This document shows, piece after piece, positions 48,802 through 61,561 of a stretch of 64,000 bases of DNA. The DNA lies in the NCBI RefSeq assembly GCF_963360655.1, contig NZ_OY725717.1, positions 806,001 through 870,000 of the forward strand, written 5' to 3'. The notes beneath the pieces were generated by a model. That model worked only from the letters and a program-made list of their open reading frames with translations, had not been told where the DNA came from and made no database searches. The DNA comes from Collinsella aerofaciens (GTDB lineage Bacteria; Actinomycetota; Coriobacteriia; Coriobacteriales; Coriobacteriaceae). Both the position numbers and the translations under genes were made by a program. Numbering within the stretch: position 1 is the first letter of the stretch; the number at the start of each line of letters is the position of its first letter.

Positions 48802-50517
48802 CTATTGCGCCGAGCCCGCGACGGGCTCAAAATGCTTGTCCTTCACGGCCGCGGCCAGGCGATCTGCCAGATTACGCACGCGCGGATCCAAGCGAGCGGC
48901 ACCCGGATTGACGAAGAAGCGCGCCGTGCAGTCCATAATGCGACCAGTAATAACCAGGTCGTTGTCACGCAGCGTGGCGCCCGTGGCGGTGATGTCTACG
49001 ATACGGTCGGTCATGCCGACAATGGGGCCCAGCTCGATGTTGCCGTGCAGCGAAACGATGTCGGCGTTCACGCCGCGCTCGGCATACCAGGCGCTCGCGA
49101 TGCGCGGGTACTTGGTGGCCACGCGAAGCGACCCGCGGCGGGCATAGTTGCGCTCGGCCTGGCCGGCGCGCCACGCGGGCTCCGCCTCGATAAAGGTGCA
49201 CAGACCGTAGCCCAGATCGACCAGCTGCAGCAGGTTGAGGTCTGCCTCGATAAGCGAGTCCCAACCGCAGATGCCGCAATCGGCACCGCCGCAGCCCACA
49301 AAGGCGGGCGCGTCGCCGGGACGCACGATGACAAACTCGATATCGCCGACCGTGCCCTCGCCGGCACGCGTGTCGCGGCCGCGCACGATCAGGTGACGGC
49401 CGGGGTCGCGCAGCTCAGAGACGTCCAAGCCCGCGGCCTCGAGCACGTCGAGCGTGTCGGCCTTAAGCGAGCCCTTGGGCACGGCGATGCGCAGCGGGCC
49501 CTCGGCGCCACGGCCCGCAGCGTGATCGCCGTCGGAAGCGGCGTCCTCGGCCGAGGTGCGCGCGGCCTCCAAGCGCTCGAGCGAAAAGGCGAAGCCCGCC
49601 GCTGGCACCTCGATACCGTCGCCAAATGCGCCGGTAAAGATAGAGTCGTAGCGACCGCCCGAGCCCACCGGATCGGGCAGGCCGCCGGCATAGGCCTTAA
49701 AGACCAGGCCCGTGTAGTAATCGAAAGAGTTCATGATAGAGAAGTCGAACGACAGCACCTGGGCGTCCTCGGGTGCCAGGCCCTCGACCAGGGCACGCAG
49801 CTCGCGCGTCAGCGGCGCGACGATACCGGCGGCCTCCAGCAGCGCGTCCACGCGGTCGAGCACCTCGGCACCGCCGTGCAGACGCGGCAGCTCGCTAATG
49901 GCGGCCTTGACGGCATCGGACTCGACGCTTACCGCCACGCGGGCATCGAGGCCCACAAAGTCGTTGGCATGCACGCAGCGCAGGGCCTCGGCAGCCAGCT
50001 CACGATCCTCGCACGCCGCAAGCAGCTCCTTAAACGGACGCACGCTACCTGCGATAATGCGCGCATCGGGCAGCGCCAACTTGCGCACGGCCTCGGCCAC
50101 GAGCGAGACAATCTCGACATCGCCCGCGGTATCGCCCGCGCCGATAAGCTCAAAACCCAGTTGCGTAAACTGACGCGAGCCGCCGGCATTGCGCTGACAC
50201 TCGCGGACCACCGGCGCCTCATAGCGCAGGCGCAGCGGCAGATCGGCCGCGCGCATGCGAGTCGAAACCAGGCGAACGATCGGCAGCGTGTTGTCGGGAC
50301 GGACCACCAGCAGGCGACCATCATCGTCAAAGAGCTTAAACGGCGTGTCCGCAATGCGGCCGCCCTCCTCGAGTGAGCCCTTGTCCTCGAGCAGTGGCGT
50401 CTCGACCGGCAGGTAATGATGCTCCCTAAAGCAGCCCTTCACCGTACATGCGATCTCCTCGCGCGCCTGAGCCTCCTCGGGCAATATGTCCCGGAATCCC
50501 CACGGTGTGGCCGTCAT
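48802..50517 (-). CDS. hisZG: HisZ-HisG fusion: ATP phosphoribosyltransferase
   Basis: 571 residues combining both subunits of the short-form enzyme that starts histidine synthesis. Residues 1 to about 325 form a HisZ/HisRS-like domain (MTATPWGFRDILPEEAQAREE, RPDNTLPIVRL, RECQRNAGGSRQFTQLGFELIG, FDFSIMNSFDYYTGLVFKAYA, GSGGRYDSI). A linker of about 17 residues (SAEDAASDGDHAAGRGAEG) leads to HisG from residue 342 (LRIAVPKGSLKADTLDVLE) to the end, 230 residues, with the PRPP site in VDITATGATLRDNDL. HisG lacks the C-terminal allosteric domain, as expected when HisZ is the regulator. There is no stop or frameshift between the domains. It is first in the operon. Confidence 0.93.
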   Translation of the reverse strand: MTATPWGFRDILPEEAQAREEIACTVKGCFREHHYLPVETPLLEDKGSLEEGGRIADTPFKLFDDDGRLLVVRPDNTLPIVRLVSTRMRAADLPLRLRYEAPVVRECQRNAGGSRQFTQLGFELIGAGDTAGDVEIVSLVAEAVRKLALPDARIIAGSVRPFKELLAACEDRELAAEALRCVHANDFVGLDARVAVSVESDAVKAAISELPRLHGGAEVLDRVDALLEAAGIVAPLTRELRALVEGLAPEDAQVLSFDFSIMNSFDYYTGLVFKAYAGGLPDPVGSGGRYDSIFTGAFGDGIEVPAAGFAFSLERLEAARTSAEDAASDGDHAAGRGAEGPLRIAVPKGSLKADTLDVLEAAGLDVSELRDPGRHLIVRGRDTRAGEGTVGDIEFVIVRPGDAPAFVGCGGADCGICGWDSLIEADLNLLQLVDLGYGLCTFIEAEPAWRAGQAERNYARRGSLRVATKYPRIASAWYAERGVNADIVSLHGNIELGPIVGMTDRIVDITATGATLRDNDLVITGRIMDCTARFFVNPGAARLDPRVRNLADRLAAAVKDKHFEPVAGSAQ

Positions 50518-50553
50518 CTGGTGAGCCTCCTCATGCTGTGTTTCATATAGAGC

Positions 50554-50583
50554 AGAAGACCGGCATAGCTCCGCCGGTCTTCT
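50554..50583 (-). promoter_or_regulatory. Hairpin in the his operon leader
   Basis: Perfect 11-bp stem AGAAGACCGGC / GCCGGTCTTCT with an 8-nt loop, 37 bp before the HisZ-HisG start on the minus strand. No long T run follows, so it is not a plain terminator. A short frame of ten codons (start 50546) ends overlapping the ATG as ATGA; it has one His codon and no ribosome site. Confidence 0.45.
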
Positions 50584-50639
50584 GGGTACTTTAGCATACT
50601 AGAGTGTTTGCGGGGAGAATCGTCCTCCTCGGCTCATAG

Positions 50640-50815
50640 CGTATTCATTTGGAAACATAGGGGAAAGCGTGTCCCGCCCGCCAGCCAAAAACTGGGATGC
50701 GGTTTCCGGTTGAGGTCCTCAGCGGAAAGTGTGTCCCATTCTGAGCGCCTGTTCTGGGACGTGCTTTCCGCCAGAAGCCTCAAGCGGAAAGCACGTCCCG
50801 TTTCTCAAAAAACGT
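50640..50815. repeat. Cluster of GGAAAGYRYGTCCC words with a 16-bp hairpin
   Basis: The words GGAAAGCGTGTCCC, GGAAAGTGTGTCCC and GGAAAGCACGTCCC occur at about 50,662, 50,717 and 50,790, and GGGACGTGCTTTCCGC (50,756-50,771) is an inverted copy pairing perfectly with GCGGAAAGCACGTCCC. The 50,518-50,843 gap thus holds the his leader and this repeat cluster but no gene. Confidence 0.7.
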
Positions 50816-50843: not shown

Positions 50844-51680
50844 TTAGGCGCCAATCGCGCGTCGGTACTCTGCCATTACCTGCGCATCGGCAGCTGCGGG
50901 GTCGGCAAAATAGCGCCAGTCATAGGTCTCGGCCGAAACAACTCCGCGATAGCCGCGCGTCACCAGCCTATCCAGGTCGGCGCGCATATCGCGGTCGCCG
51001 TCACCCCAAGCAAGATGCGTCGTGCCATCTGCCGCAACATCGACAAAATGCACGTGGGCGACATCATCGCCAAGCAGATCGAAATAATCGTCGATGGTAT
51101 CCCCCGCCACCGCCATAGCGCCCAAATCCAGACACGCCTTAAGTGCCGGATGATCAACTGCCTCGATCATGCACTTCGTATCGGCCGCCGAGTTCACGAT
51201 CATCGACTCAACCGGTTGTAGGGCCTCGAGCACCAGTCGCACGCCGCGCTCTCCCGCATGCTCGGCAATCGCACGCAGCATCGAGGCGCTGCGACCCCAC
51301 GCGTCCTCGATCGGCTCGTTCAAAAATGCCCAGCCGCTCGAGACCATGACCTGCTCGGCTCCAAGTTCCGCCGCGATATCTACAACGTTCTTAAAGTACG
51401 CGAGCGTGCGGGCACGCGCCTCATTCCCGCGCGCCGCGATATTCCACGGCTTGGGGTTGTTCTGTTCGGGACAAAGCCCCACAATCCGAACCCCATACCG
51501 CTGCGACAGCTCCCGCACCTGCTCGAGCGAATCGTATCCATGGCAATCGACATACAGATGCATCGCCCCGGTCCAAAGCTCGCAACACGTGTAGCCCGAG
51601 GCCGCTGCCGAAGAAAAGAATTCCTCAAGGTCAAAATAACGATGGCTGATATTCATGACGGCAAGCTGGGGATAGCTCAT
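50844..51680 (-). CDS. FrlC-like sugar epimerase (xylose-isomerase-like TIM barrel)
   Basis: 278-residue TIM-barrel isomerase/epimerase. Segments resemble E. coli FrlC as I recall it: GYTCCELWTGAMH (for GYDGIEIWGG), IVGLCPEQNNPKPWNIA, LVLEALQPVESMIVNSA and AHVHFVDVAADGTTHLAWGDG. Metal-ligand Glu/Asp/His/Glu candidates are present. FrlC interconverts fructoselysine and psicoselysine. GGAGAG precedes the ATG at 51680. It is the last gene of the unit that starts with the deglycase gene at 52815, 73 bp after it. Exact substrate is inferred. Confidence 0.72.
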   Translation of the reverse strand: MSYPQLAVMNISHRYFDLEEFFSSAAASGYTCCELWTGAMHLYVDCHGYDSLEQVRELSQRYGVRIVGLCPEQNNPKPWNIAARGNEARARTLAYFKNVVDIAAELGAEQVMVSSGWAFLNEPIEDAWGRSASMLRAIAEHAGERGVRLVLEALQPVESMIVNSAADTKCMIEAVDHPALKACLDLGAMAVAGDTIDDYFDLLGDDVAHVHFVDVAADGTTHLAWGDGDRDMRADLDRLVTRGYRGVVSAETYDWRYFADPAAADAQVMAEYRRAIGA

Positions 51681-51753
51681 AATTACTCTCCAACCCAAGC
51701 GAGGCCCCGTTCCATATAGGAGCGAGGCCCGATTACACAAACGTTATTTGCTC

Positions 51754-52815
51754 TTAGTAGTCGAACTGGTGATAGTAGCGACGGTAGTTGAGGTTGTGCT
51801 TGGTGACCGTCTCGTAGTAAGCGGCAAGGCGATCGGTGATCAGCGAGGAGAGGATCCACGGGGAGACGATGACGCGGAACTCGTCGTCAAGGCCGGGGAT
51901 CGCGAACTCGGCGGTATCGATGATGTTGATGTCGGTGTCGCCGGTCACGCCGCGGGTCAGGAACGCGCGGGCGCGCTCGTCGAGCTTGCGGTTCTCGTCC
52001 TCGCCCATGAACAGGAACACGGGGACGCCCGGCTCCACGAGCTCGAGGGTGCCGTGGAAGAAGTCGGCCGAGGTGATGTAGCGGGTGCGCTTCCACTGCA
52101 TCTCCTCCAGGATGCACATCGAGAACAGGATGGTCTCGCCCCACAGGGCGCCGGAGCCGATGAACATGGTGTAGGGGGCCAGGGCGTACTTCTTGGCGAG
52201 CTCCTCGGCGCGCGGCTCGAAGCTCTTGCGGATGTCGACCAGGTGGGTCCAAACGTCCTTGGTCTGCTCGATGAACTTATCGAACTTGGGGAAGCAGCCG
52301 CGGCGGTTGAGCAGGCGCAGGCCGAAGCAGTCGGCGAGGTAGTAGCCCATCTCGCAGCCACCGTTACCATGATCGGAAGCCATCTTGACGCAATTCTCGG
52401 CGCCGACAGCCTGGCCGATGGGGCCCTCGGGCTTGGTCATGGCGTAGACGCGAATGCCCTTTTCCTTCATCTTCTTGACGGCCTCGAGGACCTCGGGGGT
52501 GGTGCCGGACTCGGAGGCGGTGAGCACGACGGACTTCTCGGTCATGCGCTTGTGGCCGGAGACGTTCCACTCGGCGGCGTGGATCAGGTAGACCTCGAGG
52601 TCGCGGTCGCCGAACTTGTTCATGAGGTACTCGAGCTGCATGAGCTCGTCCCAGGTGCCGCCGACGCCCATCAGGAACACGGCGTCGTAGCCCTCGTCGG
52701 CGACCTTGTCGGCGAGCTCAATCATCTTCTTGCCGGTCTCGTAGACGTTCTTGCCGTCCTCGACGTAGCCCTCCTGGCTAAAGTGCATGATCTCGATCTT
52801 CTCGGTTTCCTTCAT
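51754..52815 (-). CDS. FrlB-like SIS deglycase, copy 1
   Basis: 353-residue sugar isomerase (SIS) domain protein. The first SIS half has FLMGVGGTWDELMQLEYL and SVVLTASESGTTPEVLEAVKKM; the second has FIGSGALWGETILFS and DFFHGTLELVEPGVPVFLFMG, and the C-terminus RRYYHQFDY. These last features resemble FrlB (RHGPLEIVEPGVP, RRYYG..), which removes the lysine from 6-phosphofructoselysine, and the related FraB. Where FrlB has EFRHG this protein has DFFHG. AAAGG precedes the ATG at 52815. It is almost identical to the gene at 56944. Amadori substrate is inferred. Confidence 0.75.
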   Translation of the reverse strand: MKETEKIEIMHFSQEGYVEDGKNVYETGKKMIELADKVADEGYDAVFLMGVGGTWDELMQLEYLMNKFGDRDLEVYLIHAAEWNVSGHKRMTEKSVVLTASESGTTPEVLEAVKKMKEKGIRVYAMTKPEGPIGQAVGAENCVKMASDHGNGGCEMGYYLADCFGLRLLNRRGCFPKFDKFIEQTKDVWTHLVDIRKSFEPRAEELAKKYALAPYTMFIGSGALWGETILFSMCILEEMQWKRTRYITSADFFHGTLELVEPGVPVFLFMGEDENRKLDERARAFLTRGVTGDTDINIIDTAEFAIPGLDDEFRVIVSPWILSSLITDRLAAYYETVTKHNLNYRRYYHQFDY

Positions 52816-52861
52816 GGCTTTTCCTTTCTGTCCTGCACGCAACTCTATACATCGCGTTTCT

Positions 52862-52965
52862 TTTCGATACCAATTATAGACATACATCTAATGTGTTTTT
52901 AATACCACTTATCAATCTGCTCCAATCCTCGGTGAACGGTCGAAATTCTCTGGTGAGTGGTATTA
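52862..52965 (-). promoter_or_regulatory. Promoter/operator region of deglycase copy 1
   Basis: On the minus strand a TATAAT -10 box (52873-52878) lies next to GGTATCG (52865-52871). A second box GGTATTA (52900-52906) is 35 bp upstream, and a third GGTATTA copy in opposite orientation is near 52959-52965, making a 12-bp inverted repeat TTTAATACCACT / AGTGGTATTAAA. The word GAACGGTCGA (52934-52943) also recurs in the 59.2-kb promoter. Confidence 0.55.
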
Positions 52966-52985
52966 AATTAGAATTGAATGTATAG

Positions 52986-54200
52986 CTAACGCCTCTGGCG
53001 CCTCCCTTGTGTGACAAAGAACAGCGTTCCTACCAGCGCAATAATGGTCGATGCCCCAAACAGTACCGTCTGGACACCCAAAGCCTCCGCCAAAAACGGA
53101 GCCGCCAGCAGCGGCAGCACGCCGGCGCTCATCAGGCCAAAACGCACAAAGCCGGTAATGCGCCCCAGGTATTTGATGTCAGCGCGCTCCTGAATCAAGA
53201 TCATCTGCAGCGGTTCCAGGAATCCCCAGGCCAGACCGTTAATCGCCTGACCGATAATCGCGACCCCCAGCATATCGGTGCCCACGTACACCATGGACCC
53301 AATGCCCACGGCCATGAGCGCGCCGAGCAGCAATCGCAGGTTGACATGGCGGGCAGAAAGCTTGGTCAGGATGAACGCGCCCACCGAGGAAGTGAGGCCC
53401 ACGACCGAGGACAGCCAGCCCAGCCAGACGATATCCACGTTGAGCACATCGCGATAGAACAACGACTCCAGCGAATCGAACGCGCCAAACGCAAAGAAGC
53501 CCAGAAAGCCCGAGATAAAGATAAGGCGCAGGTCGTGGTCGCGAAACGTAAGTCGCGCGCCCTCGGCCATGCCGCCCAGAATGCCGCCCTTCGGCTTCTC
53601 CCCTTTTGCGGGAGCAACACACTCGTGACAGCCCAAGGAGAGCACGGCCGCCACACCCATCATGCCCGCCATGAGCAGATAGACCGATTGCGTGGCAAAA
53701 CAGCTCACGATGGCACCACCGAGCAGCGGGCCAGCGGTATAGGCAATATTGCTGTAGAACACCATGAGGCCGTTCACGCGGGTACGGCCCTCGGTGGTCG
53801 ACTCCAGGTATCCCGGAAACGCATGCGTGCAGGTGTTGATAAAGCCGCCCGCAAGTCCCAAGACGCACGCGGCAAACACAAGCCCGGGGACAGACAACGG
53901 CGCCAACCCCACGCCAAGCGATAGCACAGCCGTAATCACGCACGTCACAAACGACGTCCGGCGCGGTCCAAAGCGGTCGATGACCGAGCCCGACACCATA
54001 TTGCCCACCGACGTCATAAGATTGCGCACGAGCGTAATGGCGGCAACCAAAAAGGCCGTGCCGGCCAGATCATACGTGGCCGCACCGATAAGCCCCAAAA
54101 AGTAGACCGCGTTGTTGGCACACCACTGCAGGGACTCAATAAGAATCAGCCTGACCTCTGCCGGCGTCAGGCGCATTGCTTCGCGATCCTTCGCGAACAT
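52986..54200 (-). CDS. MFS transporter
   Basis: 404-residue inner-membrane transporter with about 12 hydrophobic helices and two homologous halves. Typical loops are DRFGPRRTSF after helix 2 and NGLMVFYSNIAYTAGPLLGGA. A basic N-terminus (FAKDREAMRLT) is cytoplasmic. AAGGAG precedes the ATG. A terminator isolates it from the PTS operon upstream, so it is its own unit. Substrate unknown; its location between two halves of the sugar locus makes sugar or amino-acid export/import plausible. Confidence 0.85.
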   Translation of the reverse strand: MFAKDREAMRLTPAEVRLILIESLQWCANNAVYFLGLIGAATYDLAGTAFLVAAITLVRNLMTSVGNMVSGSVIDRFGPRRTSFVTCVITAVLSLGVGLAPLSVPGLVFAACVLGLAGGFINTCTHAFPGYLESTTEGRTRVNGLMVFYSNIAYTAGPLLGGAIVSCFATQSVYLLMAGMMGVAAVLSLGCHECVAPAKGEKPKGGILGGMAEGARLTFRDHDLRLIFISGFLGFFAFGAFDSLESLFYRDVLNVDIVWLGWLSSVVGLTSSVGAFILTKLSARHVNLRLLLGALMAVGIGSMVYVGTDMLGVAIIGQAINGLAWGFLEPLQMILIQERADIKYLGRITGFVRFGLMSAGVLPLLAAPFLAEALGVQTVLFGASTIIALVGTLFFVTQGRRQRR

Positions 54201-54217
54201 ACGAACTCCTTCTATAC

Positions 54218-54258
54218 AAAAAGGGGATGGAGGGCATAGGCCTGCTCCATCCCCTTTC
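54218..54258 (-). terminator. Terminator of the mannose-family PTS operon
   Basis: Stem AAGGGGATGGAG / CTCCATCCCCTT with a 12-nt loop GGCATAGGCCTG, followed on the minus strand by TTTGTATAG. It lies about 34 nt after the IID stop. Confidence 0.86.
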
Positions 54259-54291
54259 CAGGTTGCAACGAAAATCTATGCAGCCGGGCCC

Positions 54292-55116
54292 TTACGCCAG
54301 CACGCCGAAGAACGCGCCGATGATGCCCACGACCATGGTGGCAACGATCAGCACCATGGGGTTGATCTTCTTGGACAGCAGCCAGTAGTACAGCCAGAAG
54401 GCGATCATGCCGAGCATGCCGGGCATGATGCCGTCCAGGATGTCCTGGAGGGTCTGGGCGTCCTCGCCCGAGCCGATGGCCACCGGGATGCTGGCCCAGA
54501 ACATGTCCTTGCACATGGCGCCCACGACCATGACGCCCACGATGCCCACGCAGGTCATGATCTTCTGCATGAGGCCGGTCCTCTGGGCCTCGTCCAGGAA
54601 GCCCACGCCCAGCTCGTAGCCCTTGACGGCGCCCCAGACGCGCAGCGCGAAGCCGGGGACGTTGTAGATGAGCAGGAAGGCGATGGGGCCGAAGGGGTTG
54701 CCGGCCTGGCACAGGCTGATGCCCACCGCGGCGGCGACCACGCGCAGCGTCGACAGGAAGATGGAGTCGCCGATGCCGGACAGCGGGCCCATGAGGGCGG
54801 CCTTGACGTCGTTGACGCTCTCGGGCTCGATCTCGCCGCGGGCGACCTTCTCCTCCATGGCCATCGCGATGCCGCCGACGAACGGGGCGAACTGGACGGT
54901 GATGTTGAAGAACGCGCAGTGGCGGTGCAGGGCCTCGGCGTAGTCGTCGGGGCGGCCGGCGTAGATCTTCTTGAGCATGTTGGCGACCATCAGGCAGAAG
55001 GCGATGTTCATCTGCTTGTAGTAGGTCCAGGAGAACTCCATGCCCAGGGCGCCGACGTTGACGGCGCTCTTGACGAGGTCGGAGCGCGTGATCTTGTTCT
55101 CGGGACTAGAAGTCAT
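54292..55116 (-). CDS. PTS mannose-family IID component
   Basis: 274-residue membrane subunit that forms the sugar channel with IIC. The N-terminus ITRSDLVKSAV and GMEFSWTYYKQMNIAFCLMV are typical, followed by the conserved FFNI and GP(L)SGIGDS region (MGPLSGIGDSIFLSTLRVVAAAVG). Two hydrophobic helices end the protein (MLGMIAFWLYYWLL, ILIVATMVVGIIGAFFGVLA-like). I prefer the ATG at 55116, 9 nt after AAGGGG; an ATG at 55125 is possible. The start lies within the 3' end of the IIC gene, so the genes overlap. Confidence 0.93.
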   Translation of the reverse strand: MTSSPENKITRSDLVKSAVNVGALGMEFSWTYYKQMNIAFCLMVANMLKKIYAGRPDDYAEALHRHCAFFNITVQFAPFVGGIAMAMEEKVARGEIEPESVNDVKAALMGPLSGIGDSIFLSTLRVVAAAVGISLCQAGNPFGPIAFLLIYNVPGFALRVWGAVKGYELGVGFLDEAQRTGLMQKIMTCVGIVGVMVVGAMCKDMFWASIPVAIGSGEDAQTLQDILDGIMPGMLGMIAFWLYYWLLSKKINPMVLIVATMVVGIIGAFFGVLA

Positions 55117-55879
55117 CGTCCTCATCCCCTTCCGCGGAGAGCTGGGGCTGGGCTCCGCCCAGGCCGAGCAGGTCGAACTTGTCGATGCCGATGATGATGG
55201 CGATCAGGGCGACGCCCAGGACGGGCACGTTGGCGTAGGAGCACAGCAGGAAGCCCAGGAAGTAGAAGGGCACGAGCTGCTTGGTGAGCACCAGGCGGCC
55301 GAGCATGGCGAAGCCCATGGCAGGCAGGATGTTGGCGGCAACGCCAAAGCCAGCAAGGACAAAGGGCGGGATGAAGTCGAGCATGCCTTGGATGGCGTCA
55401 GCACCCAGATAGAACGACAGCGAGCACAGCAGGAACGCCATGATGATACCGGTCAAACCGATCAGGAAGTGCATCGCATAGACACCCTTAAGGTTGCCCT
55501 GGCCGGAGAAGACATCAGCGCGGTCAACCAGGATCGGCAGGGCGGCGTTGAGGATGTTCTTGATGGCAAGGCACAGCGTGGCGATGGGCATGGCAAGCGC
55601 GATGGCTGCCTCGGTGCTCTGGCCCAGCTGGATAGCGAAGGCGCAGGCGAGCACGCCGCCGATCGTCTCATCAGGCGGCACGTAGGCGCCGATGGAGATC
55701 GAGCCCATGAACAGCAGCTCCAGGCTGGCGCCGATCGCGAGGCCGGACTGCAGGTCCCCCAGCACCAGGCCCACGAGCGGGCACAGGACGATGGGGCGGA
55801 ACGCATAGAGCGTACCGAGCTGGCAGTCGAACTTACCAAATGCGGCGATAAGTCCGATGAGGATTGCTTGGGTAAGCAT
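55106..55879 (-). CDS. PTS mannose-family IIC component
   Basis: 257-residue membrane subunit. It has about seven hydrophobic helices, with the family signature region GLVLGDLQSGLAIGASLELLFMGSISIGAYVPPDETIGGVLA near residues 35-80. The C-terminal tail is acidic (GDEDDDF). AGGGGG precedes the ATG. It overlaps the IID gene. Together with IIA, IIB and IID it makes a complete mannose-type PTS, the same class as the GfrABCD glucoselysine transporter. Confidence 0.93.
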   Translation of the reverse strand: MLTQAILIGLIAAFGKFDCQLGTLYAFRPIVLCPLVGLVLGDLQSGLAIGASLELLFMGSISIGAYVPPDETIGGVLACAFAIQLGQSTEAAIALAMPIATLCLAIKNILNAALPILVDRADVFSGQGNLKGVYAMHFLIGLTGIIMAFLLCSLSFYLGADAIQGMLDFIPPFVLAGFGVAANILPAMGFAMLGRLVLTKQLVPFYFLGFLLCSYANVPVLGVALIAIIIGIDKFDLLGLGGAQPQLSAEGDEDDDF

Positions 55880-55937
55880 ATATCCCCCTTTCCTAATAGG
55901 ACACTACGAAGAGCTCAGACTCTTCGAAATTGAACGC

Positions 55938-56420
55938 CTAGAGCACGCTGGCGCAGTCAACCTTGGGCTCATCGGCCAGGGGTCGAATCTCGACCTCAAC
56001 GCCACGATCCAGCATCTCGCGCACATCGGCTTCCTCGGCCGCGGTCAGGAAGATCTGACGAGAGACCTGACGAGCATCGGGACGCTTCTCGTCCTTGGGC
56101 TTGGTGTTGCCCAGGTTGACCGACTTGATCTGCGGGCAGCCCTCAACAAGCTGCTTTGCCTCAGCAATAGTGGCGACACAGATGATCATCTTGTACTTGT
56201 CGGTCACGCCCGAGTTGATAGCTTCGATTGCATGCTCCATATCTTTGATGACGAGCTTGCAGCCGGCAGGCTTGCCCATCTTGAGCGTCGTCTTCCACAC
56301 CGGGTCGTTAGCGACCTTATCGCCCACGCAGAAGATGCAGTTGGAGCCAAGGCCCTGAACCCAGGAAACTGCGACCTGGCCATGAAGCAGGCGATGGTCA
56401 ACGCGAAGTAGCTGAATCAT
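55938..56420 (-). CDS. PTS mannose/fructose/sorbose-family IIB component
   Basis: 160-residue cytoplasmic phosphotransfer domain. The phosphorylated His is expected at residue 13 in RVDHRLLHGQVAVSW. Length and the following LGSNCIFCVGDKVAND are typical. The ATG at 56420 has GGGGGG 7 nt upstream and is preferred over a TTG 5 codons earlier. It follows IIA by 57 bp. Confidence 0.93.
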   Translation of the reverse strand: MIQLLRVDHRLLHGQVAVSWVQGLGSNCIFCVGDKVANDPVWKTTLKMGKPAGCKLVIKDMEHAIEAINSGVTDKYKMIICVATIAEAKQLVEGCPQIKSVNLGNTKPKDEKRPDARQVSRQIFLTAAEEADVREMLDRGVEVEIRPLADEPKVDCASVL

Positions 56421-56477
56421 AATGTGACCCCCCAAAGGTCTTGTGCCGTCTTACGGCGTGTCAGTAGGTGCTGCGGA

Positions 56478-56897
56478 TTAGAACTCTTCTTCCTCGTCGT
56501 CATCGACCAAAAGATCGTTGACAAACTTCACGCGCGTATCGTCCGCAGCGACGATGGCGCGAATCGTCTCCTCAACCGGCGCCGACTCGTCAGAGAACAG
56601 CAACTGGATGAGGAGAGGAAGGTTCATGTTGGTAACGAGGTACGTGCGGGGACGCGTCTGGACGACCTTGGTAAACTCGTTGTTGACGCTGCCGCCAAAG
56701 AGGTCGGTGCAGACAACGACATCATCGTCAGCAGACATGCCTGCCAGCAGTTTTTGGGCCTCCTCGGCCACGTCCATGCGGCCATCGACGAACATCGAAA
56801 GATCGTGGACGTTGTCGCGAGCGCCCGAGAGCAGCTCGACGCTCTCCTTGATGCCGGTAGCGAAGTGCGCATGGCTGGCGATGATGTACTGTCTCAT
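56478..56897 (-). CDS. PTS mannose-family IIA component
   Basis: 139-residue cytoplasmic phosphocarrier. The active His is residue 9 in IIASHAHFATG; the conserved TDLFGGSVNNEF loop is near residue 65. The C-terminus is a run of Glu/Asp (DDDEEEEF). AGAGGA precedes the ATG. It is a separate protein here rather than fused to IIB. It lies between the second deglycase gene and IIB in one operon. Confidence 0.93.
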   Translation of the reverse strand: MRQYIIASHAHFATGIKESVELLSGARDNVHDLSMFVDGRMDVAEEAQKLLAGMSADDDVVVCTDLFGGSVNNEFTKVVQTRPRTYLVTNMNLPLLIQLLFSDESAPVEETIRAIVAADDTRVKFVNDLLVDDDEEEEF

Positions 56898-56943
56898 TCT
56901 GTGTTCCTCTCAATAGCCCGGCACGTTCCCGCACCCGTTTTCT

Positions 56944-58005
56944 TTAGTAGTCGAACTGGTGATAGTAGCGACGATACTTGAGGTTGTGCTTGGTGACCGT
57001 CTCGTAGTAGCGAGCCAGGCGGTCGGTAACGAGCACCGTCAGAATCCACGGAGACACGATGACGCGGAACTCGTCGTCAAGGCCGGGGATCGCGAACTCG
57101 GCGGTGTCGATGATGTTGATGTCGGTGTCGCCGGTCACGCCGCGGGTCAGGAAGGCGCGGACGCGCTCGTCGAGCTTGCGGTTCTCGTCCTCGCCCATGA
57201 ACAGGAAGACCGGGACGCCGGGCTCCACGAGCTCGAGGGTGCCGTGGAAGAAGTCGGCCGAGGTGATGTAGCGGGTGCGCTTCCACTGCATCTCCTCCAG
57301 GATGCACATCGAGAACAGGATGGTCTCGCCCCACAGGGCGCCGGAGCCGATGAACATGGTGTAGGGGGCCAGGGCGTACTTCTTGGCGAGCTCCTCGGCG
57401 CGCGGCTCGAAGCGCTTGCGGATATCGAGCATGTCCTTCCAGATGTCCTTGGTCTGCTCGATAAACAGATCGAACTTGGGGAAGCAGCCGCGGCGGTTGA
57501 GCAGGCGCAGGCCGAAGCAGTCGGCGAGGTAGTAGCCCTTCTCACAGCCGCCCGAACCATGGTCAGAAGCCATGGCGACGCAGTTCTCGGCGCCGACAGC
57601 CTGGCCGATGGGGCCCTCGGGCTTGGTCATGGCGTAGACGCGAATGCCCTTTTCCTTCATCTTCTTGACGGCCTCGAGGACCTCGGGGGTGGTGCCGGAC
57701 TCGGAGGCGGTGAGCACGACGGACTTCTCGGTCATGCGCTTGTGGCCCATGACGTTCCACTCGGCGGCGTGGATCAGGTAGACCTCGAGGTCGCGGTCGC
57801 CGAACTTGTTCATGAGGTACTCGAGCTGCATGAGCTCGTCCCAGGTGCCGCCGACGCCCATCAGGAACACGGCGTCGTAGCCCTCGTCGGCAACCTTGTC
57901 GGCGAGCGCGGTCATCTTCTTGCCGGTCTCGTAGAGCGCCTTGCCGTCCTCGAGATAGCCCTCCTGGTCGAAATGCATGATCTCGATCTTCTCGGTTTCC
58001 TTCAT
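56944..58005 (-). CDS. FrlB-like SIS deglycase, copy 2
   Basis: 353-residue paralogue of the gene at 51754, same length and start context. Differences are scattered near the N-terminus (FDQEGYLEDGKALYETGKKMTAL), around VMGHKRM, and at the C-terminus (ILTVLVTDRLARYYE), whereas most of the body, including DFFHGTLELVEPG, is unchanged even at DNA level. AAAGGAGAG precedes the ATG. It is the second gene of the PTS operon, after a GfrE-like SIS gene. It likely acts on a phosphorylated Amadori compound imported by the neighbouring PTS (inference). Confidence 0.75.
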   Translation of the reverse strand: MKETEKIEIMHFDQEGYLEDGKALYETGKKMTALADKVADEGYDAVFLMGVGGTWDELMQLEYLMNKFGDRDLEVYLIHAAEWNVMGHKRMTEKSVVLTASESGTTPEVLEAVKKMKEKGIRVYAMTKPEGPIGQAVGAENCVAMASDHGSGGCEKGYYLADCFGLRLLNRRGCFPKFDLFIEQTKDIWKDMLDIRKRFEPRAEELAKKYALAPYTMFIGSGALWGETILFSMCILEEMQWKRTRYITSADFFHGTLELVEPGVPVFLFMGEDENRKLDERVRAFLTRGVTGDTDINIIDTAEFAIPGLDDEFRVIVSPWILTVLVTDRLARYYETVTKHNLKYRRYYHQFDY

Positions 58006-58065
58006 TTGTCTCTCCTTTCTGGGGTTGTTTCCACATCCCCCATGCCAACGGGCATCAAAACCCGC

Positions 58066-59181
58066 TTACATTCCGTAACACTCGGCCGCTTTGGCCTTAA
58101 GCGCATTGACTGACTCTTCGTAGCCCTCCGCCTTGACCTCCATTTGCTTGGAGACAGCATCGAGATACGGGTGAACGTCCCATGACTTCAGACGCTCGGC
58201 GATCATGGCCGCAATCGTCTGGAAGAACACAAGATTGGGAATTGCGCTGAGCAGCGGAGCCACCTGAGGCACCGCAACCTCGTGAGCCCTACCCTTGGGA
58301 TGGGCCGTGAGCAGCACCGTTTTTGCCGTAACGTTCGATAGCGCATCGGCGATATTCGCAAGACGCTCCGACCCCTGCGGATCGTCGACGATAAACACCA
58401 GATAGCCCGGAACGATCTGCATTTCGGGACCATGGACGAACTCCTCGCCTTCGTGATGCATGGCAGGAATCTTGATGGTCTCGCTCAGCTTGAGCGCTGC
58501 CTCCTCGGCAACACCATAGTTGGGGCCGTTGCCGACGACCATGGCGGGCATGTGCTCAGAAAGCTCGAGCATGTGATCTTGGACATATGCCTCGGCGGTC
58601 TTGCACATCACGGCATTAGCCTGGATAGCCTCGCGCAGGTCATCAAGACGCTGAGCAACGCCCTTGGCGTCAATCGTTCCGCGCGCCTGACCGCCGTAAA
58701 TACCAAAGAGCACCAGGTACTCAACGAGAACCTCGACGCCCAGAGTCACAAAGTCCACCGACTCGACGCCCACACCGTAGTCAAGAACGATGTCAGCGTG
58801 TTCCTTGATGGGTGCCTCGACGTTTGCCGTGAGCGCAACTGCAGCCATATCGTGTGCGCGCATGTAATCGAGCGCCGCAATCGTATTGGTTGAATAGCCG
58901 CTCTGCGAGACGGCAATGTTAAGCGCATGCTGTGGATAGGTGTGTTCAAAATCGACGAAGGCCTCGGGCGTCACAACGGACACCTGCATCTGCAGCGCAT
59001 CTTGCAGGTAATCGCGGGCGCAATCCGCAGCATGGCGCGACGAACCCGAAGCAACGATGCGCAGCGCGTCAAAAGAACCGGACTGGAAAATATCAACGAG
59101 CTGCGCTACCAGCTCAGACGAACGCTCGAGGTTCTCTCCCATACGCACATGGGCAAGCTGAACGTAATCGAGCATCTTCAT
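58066..59181 (-). CDS. GlmS/GfrE-like SIS sugar isomerase
   Basis: 371-residue protein with two SIS domains, like the isomerase half of GlmS without the amidotransferase part. The first has RIVASGSSRHAADCARDYLQ and VSQSGYSTNTIAALDYM; the second has MVVGNGPNYGVAEEAALKLSETIKI and HHEGEEFVHGPEMQIVP. GfrE, the glucoselysine 6-phosphate deglycase, and AgaS-type isomerases have this plan. The ATG at 59181 has GAGGTGA upstream. It is first in the operon with the FrlB-like gene and PTS IIA-IID. Substrate is inferred from context. Confidence 0.75.
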   Translation of the reverse strand: MKMLDYVQLAHVRMGENLERSSELVAQLVDIFQSGSFDALRIVASGSSRHAADCARDYLQDALQMQVSVVTPEAFVDFEHTYPQHALNIAVSQSGYSTNTIAALDYMRAHDMAAVALTANVEAPIKEHADIVLDYGVGVESVDFVTLGVEVLVEYLVLFGIYGGQARGTIDAKGVAQRLDDLREAIQANAVMCKTAEAYVQDHMLELSEHMPAMVVGNGPNYGVAEEAALKLSETIKIPAMHHEGEEFVHGPEMQIVPGYLVFIVDDPQGSERLANIADALSNVTAKTVLLTAHPKGRAHEVAVPQVAPLLSAIPNLVFFQTIAAMIAERLKSWDVHPYLDAVSKQMEVKAEGYEESVNALKAKAAECYGM

Positions 59182-59208
59182 CGTCTCACCTCGTAACAAA
59201 TCATTAGT

Positions 59209-59290
59209 ATTTGATACCAATCACAGTTATAGGTTACGGCTTTTTGATACCTCTTTGTCGATTAATTTATCCCCTTCGGCGAACGGTCGA
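59209..59290 (-). promoter_or_regulatory. Promoter/operator region of the PTS/deglycase operon
   Basis: TGATACC occurs at 59212-59218 and 59245-59251, 33 bp apart in direct orientation, bracketing a -10-like TATAAC (59226-59231, minus strand). The word GAACGGTCGA follows at 59281-59290. The same boxes, spacing and word occur at 52,862-52,943 before deglycase copy 1. A GntR-family regulator encoded next door is the likely binder. Confidence 0.6.
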
Positions 59291-59374
59291 TTTTGAGCCA
59301 TGTAAGGTTGTATATACAGCTGACCCAACGATCAAAACTGGTTAGTTTCCCAGCCGTTATTCACAAAATACCAG

Positions 59375-60088
59375 CTAGTACGTATAGGTGTAGCCGCCCG
59401 TATCGCCACGATTGAAGGACTTTACATACTCGATAGCCTGACCGCTCGCGTCATAGCTCACGCATTCCAAAAGCAAAGCAAGATCGCCCTGTTCCAGTCC
59501 AAGGAGGCCGGCATCTCGTGCGCCCAGTGCCTCGATATCGAGCTTTTCCTGTGCCATGACTGGCTTTCGGCCCAGCATCTCATAGGTCTCGTACAAACTG
59601 AAGACCGACACGTCAATATCTTCGATGGTTGGGAACAGCAGGCAGGGAATCAGCGCCGTCTCAATCGATACGGGGCTACCGTTTATGCAGTTCAGGCGTC
59701 GAACGGAATAGAGCAGGTCGTCCTCGGCGATGCCAAACAGGTCGGCGTAATATGGCCCCGCATAACGCTTGGAACGCGCGAGAATACGGACGGACGGCTC
59801 GCCGCCCGAAGCACGGACCGATTCACGGAAACCGACCGTGCGTTCAAAAAAAGCAGGTACTTTCTGCGCCACAAAGGCACCTTTTCCCCGAACACGGCGA
59901 ATCTGCCCGCGTCGAACCAGCTCATCGACAGCGCTTCGGATGGTCAAGCGTGTCGTACCAAATTCCTCGGCGAGGTCTTTTTCGGACGGAATCATGGAAC
60001 CCGTGGGATATGCACCGCGCTCGATACGTTCCTCGATGCAGCGTCGAATGCGCATATAAACCGGGGTGGCATCTACTGTTTCAGCCAT
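59375..60088 (-). CDS. GntR-family regulator with UTRA domain (1)
   Basis: 237-residue regulator. The N-terminal winged helix includes GTTRLTIRSAVDELVRRGQIRRVRGKGAFV. The UTRA domain begins around residue 90 and contains IETALIPCLLFPTIEDIDV and LALLLECVSYDASGQAIEY. Its start overlaps the stop of the second GntR gene by 16 nt, and AGGTG is 5 nt upstream, so both are made from one message. It ends about 190 bp before the SIS/PTS operon start. A phosphorylated sugar-amine is a likely effector (inference). Confidence 0.85.
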   Translation of the reverse strand: MAETVDATPVYMRIRRCIEERIERGAYPTGSMIPSEKDLAEEFGTTRLTIRSAVDELVRRGQIRRVRGKGAFVAQKVPAFFERTVGFRESVRASGGEPSVRILARSKRYAGPYYADLFGIAEDDLLYSVRRLNCINGSPVSIETALIPCLLFPTIEDIDVSVFSLYETYEMLGRKPVMAQEKLDIEALGARDAGLLGLEQGDLALLLECVSYDASGQAIEYVKSFNRGDTGGYTYTY

Positions 60089-60840
60089 TGTTCACCTGCC
60101 ACGCTCCTCATGCCGTTCTCTTCGCCGTTATCGGCAAAGCGGAACTTTGTGGGCAAAATCACCGATTTGCAATGCTCCACAAAACGCATGTCCTTATCAA
60201 ATTCGATCGAGCTCTCATAGAACACCGGCGTTCCCTCTTCTTGCTGGAGCAGCTCGGCCTCTTCGACGTTCAAACGCGAGATGGAGATATGCTCACGTCC
60301 ATGCTCAACGCGCACGCCACCTTCTTTGAGCAAGACATCGTAAAGGCTCTCACACTCAAAATCGTGCTCGGGAAGCGATGGGCACAGGGACAGGTTAACG
60401 TGAGCGGTCTCGATTGACGCCGGCTCGCCCTCAATAAGTCGAACGCGCTGCATGCGGAGCAAGGGAGCGCCTACAGCCACCCCAAGCTTGTCGGCAAGCG
60501 CCTCATCCGCCTCGATGGTCCCGGTGGAAACCAGACGAGAAGAGGGGTGCAGGCCGGCAGTCCGCACAGCATCGGAAAAGTTATACGTTTCCTGGAAGAT
60601 GTTCAGCGGCTTGGGAGGACACACATACGTGCCCGATCCGCGACGGCTCTCGAGCGTTCCACACGAGATAAGCCGCGTGATACCGGCACGCAACGCCGTA
60701 CGCGAAACGCCAATCTCTTCGCACAGCACGCGCTCGGCCGGCAGGCGATCGCCGCCGGCAAGCTGATGGTGCTGGATATACCAAAGAATTCCCTCAACAG
60801 CATGATCTTTGGGGGGAATTGCATAAGATTCGCCTGCCAT
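60073..60840 (-). CDS. GntR-family regulator with UTRA domain (2)
   Basis: 255-residue regulator. The winged helix is around residues 15-75 (VLCEEIGVSRTALRAGITRLISCGTLESRRGSGTYV) and the UTRA domain follows with SIETAHVNLSLCPSL and TPVFYESSIEFDKDMRFVEH. GAGGAG lies 8 nt before the ATG. It is the first gene of a two-regulator operon and overlaps the next gene. The two proteins are distinct in sequence, not a recent duplication. Confidence 0.85.
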   Translation of the reverse strand: MAGESYAIPPKDHAVEGILWYIQHHQLAGGDRLPAERVLCEEIGVSRTALRAGITRLISCGTLESRRGSGTYVCPPKPLNIFQETYNFSDAVRTAGLHPSSRLVSTGTIEADEALADKLGVAVGAPLLRMQRVRLIEGEPASIETAHVNLSLCPSLPEHDFECESLYDVLLKEGGVRVEHGREHISISRLNVEEAELLQQEEGTPVFYESSIEFDKDMRFVEHCKSVILPTKFRFADNGEENGMRSVAGEQWLKQ

Positions 60841-60878: not shown

Positions 60879-61367
60879 TTAGGCCAGCCCTCCCATGGCA
60901 TCAAATTCTGCCTTGATCTTCTCGGCGACATTCCGATACGACTTATATAGACTTGAATCGCGTTTGACTTCGTCGGTCATAACGGGAATCTCTAATTTGG
61001 AAACCTCGTCTTTTCCCGTCTGAACCGCCACAACAACGCCCATACCAAGACACATATTACGCTTGGCAGCATTTATTTTTGCTGCCTTGGCAGGATTTGC
61101 CAGGATACGCTGGGCAAATTCCTGTTTAGAGACCGCTTCTTCGGCCTCCGGATCGCCCGCCTCGGCCACTTCGCACTGCAGCACGTCCGCATAGTCAAAA
61201 ATCTTAGGCTCTGCACCACGCTGATGCACGGCCCACTTGCGGCGCGTGGCATCCTGGTAGATAGCCGGCAAAAATGTAAACCGCGGCGGGTCCAAAATCG
61301 TATCCGTGATGGTAAACACATCGGGATCAAAGGCATCCTGCGGGTTTTTCTTCTTGAACAGCCCCAT
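60879..61367 (-). CDS. Conserved hypothetical protein (162 aa)
   Basis: No family is recognised. The short basic start MGLFKKKNPQDAFD is followed by a strand-rich region (FTITDTILDPPRFTFLPAIYQDATRRKWAVHQ, then PKIFDYADVLQCEVAEAG) and a C-terminal helix SLYKSYRNVAEKIKAEFDAMGGLA. The layout resembles small DUF-type cytoplasmic proteins that begin with a GLFKKK motif. GGAGG precedes the ATG at 61367 by 5 nt; the frame runs 11 codons further. It is transcribed away from the LacI gene. Confidence 0.65.
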   Translation of the reverse strand: MGLFKKKNPQDAFDPDVFTITDTILDPPRFTFLPAIYQDATRRKWAVHQRGAEPKIFDYADVLQCEVAEAGDPEAEEAVSKQEFAQRILANPAKAAKINAAKRNMCLGMGVVVAVQTGKDEVSKLEIPVMTDEVKRDSSLYKSYRNVAEKIKAEFDAMGGLA

Positions 61368-61488
61368 ATCAGCCTCCCGTACTAGCATTAAACAACTCAA
61401 GCTGAATATAGCACCAATTTCAAGCCGCTGCCTTACCCTATCGGTGCGCGGCGTCTATGGCTCGCCCAGCGGAAGAGTTAACGGACGA

Positions 61489-61561
61489 GGGCCGGGCTGC
61501 CTGCCTTGTTTTGAGAAGTGGGCTCCGCGAACTTCTCAAAACAAGGCAGGCAGCCCGGCCC
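61489..61561. repeat. Hairpin with a perfect 31-bp stem and 11-nt loop
   Basis: Left arm 61489-61519 begins GGGCCGGGCTGCCTGCC and right arm 61531-61561 is its exact reverse complement; the loop is GGGCTCCGCGA. It lies in the 61,368-61,615 gap after the LacI stop on the minus strand. No poly-T tail follows on either strand. Confidence 0.88.

Follow-up and report, generated by a model that had tools for sequence, protein, structure and literature searches.

A Putative gfr-Type Locus for Amadori Compounds and Its PTS-Linked Epimerase in Collinsella aerofaciens

Introduction

Heated food is rich in fructoselysine, whose metabolism in the gut bears on exposure to advanced glycation end products and on cross-feeding. 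A stretch of 64,000 nucleotides from Collinsella aerofaciens (the window, representing a part of contig C6 in a genome of 2.32 Mb) harbors, on the minus strand and from position 61400 to 50844, an island embedding the genes for three SIS proteins (SIS-E, SIS-F1, and SIS-F2), a phosphotransferase system (PTS), a major facilitator superfamily (MFS) transporter, an epimerase, two GntR/UTRA regulators, and a protein of 173 amino acids (aa). A previous reading of the sequence alone had interpreted most of these genes as a hybrid of the frl and gfr systems for glycated amino acids. The island thus raises a double question: which known system does it represent, and what might an epimerase do beside a PTS? 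The analyses reported here suggest that it is, with good probability, a gfr-type operon for the utilization of Amadori compounds, with fructoselysine and glucoselysine as its predicted substrates.

Phylogeny of the SIS Proteins

The three SIS proteins were placed in a phylogenetic tree of 56 rows, including GfrE, GfrF, FrlB, GlmS, and AgaS sequences (support is given as paired values). SIS-F1 and SIS-F2 fell into one clade (100/98) with the GfrF proteins of Salmonella, Citrobacter, Klebsiella, Clostridium, and Cetobacterium, whereas Escherichia coli FrlB and the SIS proteins linked to kinases in the same genome lay outside it; hence, the two proteins that had been regarded as FrlB-like are of the GfrF type instead. 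SIS-E grouped with Salmonella GfrE (99/100), outside GlmS and AgaS, so that only the second half of its earlier label, "GlmS/GfrE-like", is retained. A grouping with AgaS or GlmS had been chosen beforehand as the outcome speaking against an Amadori-type PTS locus, and the tree did not return it. This placement, distinct from that of GlmS, AgaS, and E. coli FrlB, points to a gfr-type locus. The active-site Glu and His of SIS proteins are conserved in all three sequences, and of the two best solved relatives of F1 retrieved with phmmer (Table 1), we take 2a3n to be Salmonella STM4540, the product of gfrF. Two aspects of the same data weigh on the other side: SIS-E shares just 28% identity with Salmonella GfrE, and long branches converge near the GlmS/AgaS split.

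The identity of the F-type proteins to Salmonella GfrF is only about 39%, F1 and F2 differ from each other at 23 residues, and the other PTS- and kinase-type SIS loci of the genome presumably divide the substrates. These data would also fit a locus acting on glycated amines other than lysine (for instance conjugates of the fructose-asparagine type, dipeptides, or alpha-glycated amino acids), in which case F1 and F2 might each serve different substrates. We regard this as possible but rather doubtful, in that fructoselysine and glucoselysine are favored by the grouping of the proteins with GfrF and GfrE and by the gfr-like set of genes, and the published physiology of Collinsella concerns fructoselysine (Wolf et al. 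2019).

According to the gfr-type reading, the mannose-family PTS would import glycated amino acids (among them fructoselysine and glucoselysine), phosphorylating the sugar at C6; SIS-F1 and SIS-F2 would then split the fructosamine-6-phosphate into glucose-6-phosphate and the amino acid, and SIS-E would cleave the 6-phosphate of the glucoselysine type (the fructation product).

The Epimerase and the Asn-Pro-Lys Motif

The last gene of the island had been assigned to a FrlC-like epimerase. Fructoselysine 3-epimerase is in fact its best NCBIfam match (E 5e-43), but the score of 148 bits versus a cut-off of 305 implies that the protein is not a FrlC equivalog; its identity is about 30% to E. coli FrlC and 38–39% to the epimerases of two kinase-type loci of the same genome. 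FrlC-like epimerases were sampled from Coriobacteriia, Clostridia, Erysipelotrichaceae, Enterobacteriaceae, and plasmids, and each was classed by its neighboring genes; in their tree, the PTS-linked sequences form a separate clade, apart from FrlC.

A Pro-Lys insertion (N-P-K or S-P-K; CPEQxNPK in the window) was found in all 36 non-redundant epimerases with a mannose-family PTS nearby and in only 2 of the 46 without PTS linkage, these being from a C. aerofaciens strain with a deleted PTS and a stray copy in another genome (G033). The kinase- or ABC-linked epimerases lack it, mostly having a Tyr at this site. The motif could therefore serve as a sequence marker separating PTS-type from kinase-type Amadori epimerases. 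The AlphaFold model of the window protein (pLDDT 91.4) is a TIM barrel whose nearest folds are ketose 3-epimerases (Z ~30, rmsd 2.1–2.8), with the NPK loop following beta-3 at the catalytic end of the barrel.

These data suggest an epimerase adapted to 6-phosphorylated Amadori compounds, that is, a 6-phospho-ketosamine 3-epimerase, which would turn phosphorylated C3 epimers (of the psicoselysine-6-phosphate type) into the form cleavable by SIS-F, widening the range of substrates. The broader proposal is that the PTS-linked epimerases represent a separate type of 3-epimerase, whose substrates would be Amadori compounds phosphorylated at C6 or, in sister subclades, other phosphosugars delivered by a PTS, with the NPK beta-3 loop touching the phosphate; we give it an even chance of being correct. 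The idea of a phosphate site draws on sequence and secondary structure. Three observations count against the proposal: the NPK epimerases form a single clade (99/98), and the correlation with the PTS may thus reflect one evolutionary event rather than repeated independent evidence; the second extra basic residue, R230, is missing in some of the PTS-linked subclades; and a bound phosphate was not seen in any member of the clade.

The possibility that the epimerase acts like FrlC, on an unphosphorylated substrate imported by the MFS transporter, with a kinase from another locus phosphorylating the product, also falls within the Amadori interpretation. The MFS gene does lie in the same operon, and PfkB/FrlD-like kinases are present elsewhere in the genome. 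We nevertheless consider this route rather unlikely, as the kinase loci have epimerases of their own, many PTS-linked epimerase loci lack this MFS gene, the N-P-K motif follows PTS linkage, and the MFS protein resembles efflux pumps; it may be an exporter of the released amino acid.

Returning to the phospho-ketosamine epimerase, NPK is also carried by two sister subclades whose PTS loci contain genes for transaldolase-like proteins and dehydrogenases and lack a SIS gene; this would be anticipated if the enzyme acts on phosphosugars delivered by a PTS. In locus L217 (4962–5828), the epimerase gene is adjacent to transaldolase-like and Fe-dependent alcohol dehydrogenase (ADH) genes; in L234 (5187–6017), to aldo/keto reductase, Zn-ADH, and mannitol dehydrogenase genes. 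Both loci probably handle other PTS sugars.

Gene Content and Organization of the Island

The coordinates of the island, whose gene order on the minus strand is that of Table 1, refer to intact open reading frames (ORFs), assigned to families by means of Pfam and NCBIfam profiles (EIIA-man, PTSIIB_sorb, EII-Sor, EIID-AGA, SIS, AP_endonuc_2, and GntR plus UTRA). The complete mannose-family PTS (IIA, IIB, IIC, and IID) and the two coupled GntR/UTRA genes of the sequence-only reading were thereby confirmed, as were its other named genes; the MFS transporter and the 173-aa protein had been missed. The true starts of several ORFs probably lie downstream of that of the longest frame (ATG at 59181 for SIS-E, 52815 for F2, and 51680 for the epimerase). 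The locus genes are 96–99% identical to those of named C. aerofaciens strains, and a gene content of this kind is far beyond chance and conserved in other families.

Table 1. Features of the island in the order of transcription.
Feature	Position	Strand	Evidence or remark
173-aa protein	60879..61400	-	No Pfam family; predicted PH-like fold; locus-linked
GntR/UTRA regulator 1	60073..60840	-	Pfam GntR 2.4e-12, UTRA 3.5e-33
GntR/UTRA regulator 2	59375..60088	-	16 bp overlap with regulator 1
P1 promoter/operator region, putative	59182..59374	-	Conserved boxes common to P2
SIS-E, GfrE-type (glucoselysine-6-phosphate deglycase type)	58066..59181	-	Tree placement; longest frame from 59220
SIS-F1, GfrF-type (fructoselysine-6-phosphate deglycase type)	56944..58005	-	PDB 2a3n/8glr E ~1e-72; tree
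PTS EIIA, mannose family	56478..56897	-	PF03610 3.2e-17
PTS EIIB	55938..56435	-	PF03830 4.2e-42
PTS EIIC	55106..55879	-	PF03609 9.1e-64
PTS EIID	54292..55125	-	PF03613 9.1e-85
MFS transporter	52986..54200	-	PF07690 5.3e-30
P2 promoter/operator region, putative	52816..52985	-	Same boxes as P1
SIS-F2, F1 paralogue	51754..52815	-	93% identity to F1, 23 aa differences
TIM-barrel epimerase, PTS-linked clade	50844..51680	-	N75-P76-K77 motif with Pro-Lys insertion (278-aa numbering)

In agreement with the earlier reading, no PfkB/FrlD-type kinase was found in the locus; eight PfkB matches lie elsewhere in the same genome, and a locus without a kinase does not mean a cell without one. The genome harbors a compact locus combining a PTS with a SIS gene of the GfrF side (C1:902 kb), two kinase-type loci with a DcuC-type transporter, an epimerase, a SIS, and a PfkB gene (C1:985–998 kb and C1:404–412 kb), and further SIS genes at C1:914–928 kb. 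We labeled the Amadori-type SIS loci of contig C1 as L037, L038, L039, and L040; two of them have kinases and DcuC-type transporters.

An amino-sugar locus, in which the SIS proteins would act as deaminases or isomerases on glucosamine- or galactosamine-6-phosphate supplied by an Aga-type PTS, is very improbable: several PTS subunits match Aga-type NCBIfam models and SIS-E matches GlmS profiles, but all below the cut-off, AgaS and GlmS stand apart from all three SIS proteins, an aldolase, a sugar-phosphate kinase, and a deacetylase were not found in the locus, and a FrlC-related epimerase has no place in an amino-sugar pathway.

On one side, the island borders a HisZ-HisG fusion and hisD; on the other, it borders the genes for MurB and a LacI-type regulator. 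Several relatives share these housekeeping flanks around variable versions of the island; its position is thus stable, while its content is not. In the fusion (48802–50517, minus strand), HisZ and HisG are joined in a single ORF of 571 aa (tRNA-synt_His, then HisG domains), 98–100% conserved among relatives. Perfect inverted repeats lie between the epimerase and HisZ-HisG genes (50756–50799, with arms of 16 bp, and 50553–50584, with arms of 12 bp) and between the gene of the 173-aa protein and that of the LacI-type regulator (61489–61561, 31 bp with an 11-bp loop), the last being possibly a strong terminator.

EamA/DMT transporter genes recur beside Amadori-type SIS genes (L046 9815–10705, L085 8128–9012, L086 8128–9027, and L238 6834–7700), in both PTS-type and kinase-type loci; their products may export the released amino acid.

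Putative Regulation

The comparison of the regions upstream of SIS-E (P1) and F2 (P2) revealed common boxes, namely ACCGTTC[AG]CCGA and two GGTATYRAA boxes about 33–35 bp apart. Those of P1 are ACCGTTCGCCGA (block 59276–59290), GGTATCAAAAA (near 59251), and GGTATCAAAT (near 59218), and they are conserved in eight aligned upstream regions from Collinsella, a Coriobacteriaceae metagenome-assembled genome (MAG), and Olsenella; those of P2 lie at 52929–52943, 52897–52907, and 52862–52872. The exact 15-mer TCGACCGTTCRCCGA has two mismatch-free occurrences in the window, only at P1 and P2. A simple inverted-repeat search did not retrieve an operator palindrome in either region. The sharing of these boxes makes F2 and the epimerase appear co-regulated with the rest of the locus, and the GntR pair presumably controls both P1 and P2, so that the two proteins would govern two promoters through common operator boxes.

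The 173-aa Protein

The 173-aa protein is present in 17 of 58 relatives, all of them with an F-type SIS gene or a fragment of it, and its gene lies within about 4 kb of the F-type SIS gene in every copy with a comparable position; it belongs to the locus. Neither Pfam nor, on its own, Foldseek gave a significant match. The best structural match of its AlphaFold model (pLDDT 85.5) is 3hsa, a bacterial PH domain (Z 8.2, rmsd 3.4, 101 aligned residues), a Z of about 8 being near background, so that a PH-like fold is tentative.

Recombination and Strain Variation

The F1 and F2 genes share 93.8% DNA identity (66 differences). Positive selection between them is unsupported, their dN/dS of 0.27 lying inside the range of the other pairs (0.15–0.36). 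Apparent in-frame SIS-F insertions in Collinsella sp. 4_8_47FAA (genome G010) are an assembly gap, a run of N, in the inspected copy (L041 13607–14911), and presumably in the second one as well.

In C. aerofaciens D31t1_170403_C12, the PTS and MFS genes are gone and a single F gene is left. Its 5' half shows F1-type states, and from about nt 460–540 on the F2 type prevails; the sequence upstream of the gene is identical to that before F1, and the sequence downstream agrees with that after F2. Such an apparent chimera would be the expected product of a crossover between the two copies. Moreover, the two copies are identical in relative G013 and an internal F2 tract is F1-like in G006, both of which fit gene conversion. 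An extra EamA-EIIC'-EIID' block is present in G023, G006, and G010; the two EIID copies differ by 0–1 bases in G006 and G023, and the sequence downstream of the EIID gene in the window corresponds to that of the second copy, which is consistent with the loss of the block from the window by recombination between EIID copies. A second PTS precedes the epimerase gene in G006 and some C. aerofaciens strains.

Since the deglycase copies flank the transporter genes, a deletion of PTS and MFS leaves a deglycase behind. In the related fra pathway of Salmonella, the phosphorylated intermediate is toxic once the deglycase is lost (PMC4941530); by analogy, and speculatively, this arrangement could be protective.

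Comparison with Known Systems

The function of the Salmonella gfr operon has been shown experimentally (PMC12675984). Like the window, gfrABCDEF embeds a mannose-family PTS (ABCD) and the SIS deglycases GfrE and GfrF, with no kinase; unlike it, the operon has only one gfrF and lacks an epimerase, an MFS transporter, and a PH-like protein, and an upstream protein of 921 aa (presumably a sigma-54-type activator) takes the place of the twin GntR/UTRA regulators. The same A-B-C-D-E-F content is found in the gfr operons of Salmonella, Klebsiella, Cetobacterium, and Fusobacterium. The seven-gene gfr-like operon of Faecalibacterium prausnitzii comprises gfrABCDF homologues, reportedly with no gfrE and with one gene lacking a Salmonella counterpart (PMC12136445). 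A plasmid locus of Enterococcus faecium (NZ_CP020485) shares the twin GntR genes, a SIS gene, and IIA-IIB-IIC-IID, but has a single SIS gene (29% to F1) and no epimerase. E. coli frlABCDR (Wiame 2002, 2004) has in common with the window a SIS deglycase, a 3-epimerase, and a GntR/UTRA regulator; however, it relies on a permease and a kinase instead of a PTS, and FrlB and FrlC belong to other clades.

In C. intestinalis DSM 13280, a region with F-type SIS proteins (91% and 84%), two GntR/UTRA pairs, a PTS, an MFS transporter (71%), and the PH-like protein differs from the window in its gene order, with two regulator-headed blocks, and in that its SIS-E relative (only 34%) lies beside another PTS; the epimerase was not found in that genome at E 1e-30. 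Fructoselysine reportedly induces loci in C. intestinalis, and glucose is said to repress a locus in C. aerofaciens, although the genes concerned may differ from those described here.

The combination of epimerase, PTS, and SIS is also present in Olsenella, Lancefieldella, Atopobium, Enorma, Limicola, Clostridium brassicae, and an Erysipelotrichaceae MAG. The "hybrid" of the sequence-only reading does exist as a set of genes, but it is neither unique nor new to Collinsella: a gfr-type locus is of a known kind, and its core, by the reports just mentioned, is not new to this genus. Three features look new, no description of them having been found in the literature examined: the clade of the epimerase, the recombination, and the PH-like protein linked to the locus.

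Conclusions

The analysis offers a testable new enzyme activity and a conserved PH-like protein, along with a recombination route by which the transporter would be acquired or lost in closely related strains of the C. aerofaciens type, a deglycase being retained. Together with the marker distinguishing PTS-type from kinase-type epimerases, this route would make the strain-level prediction of glycated-lysine use more reliable.

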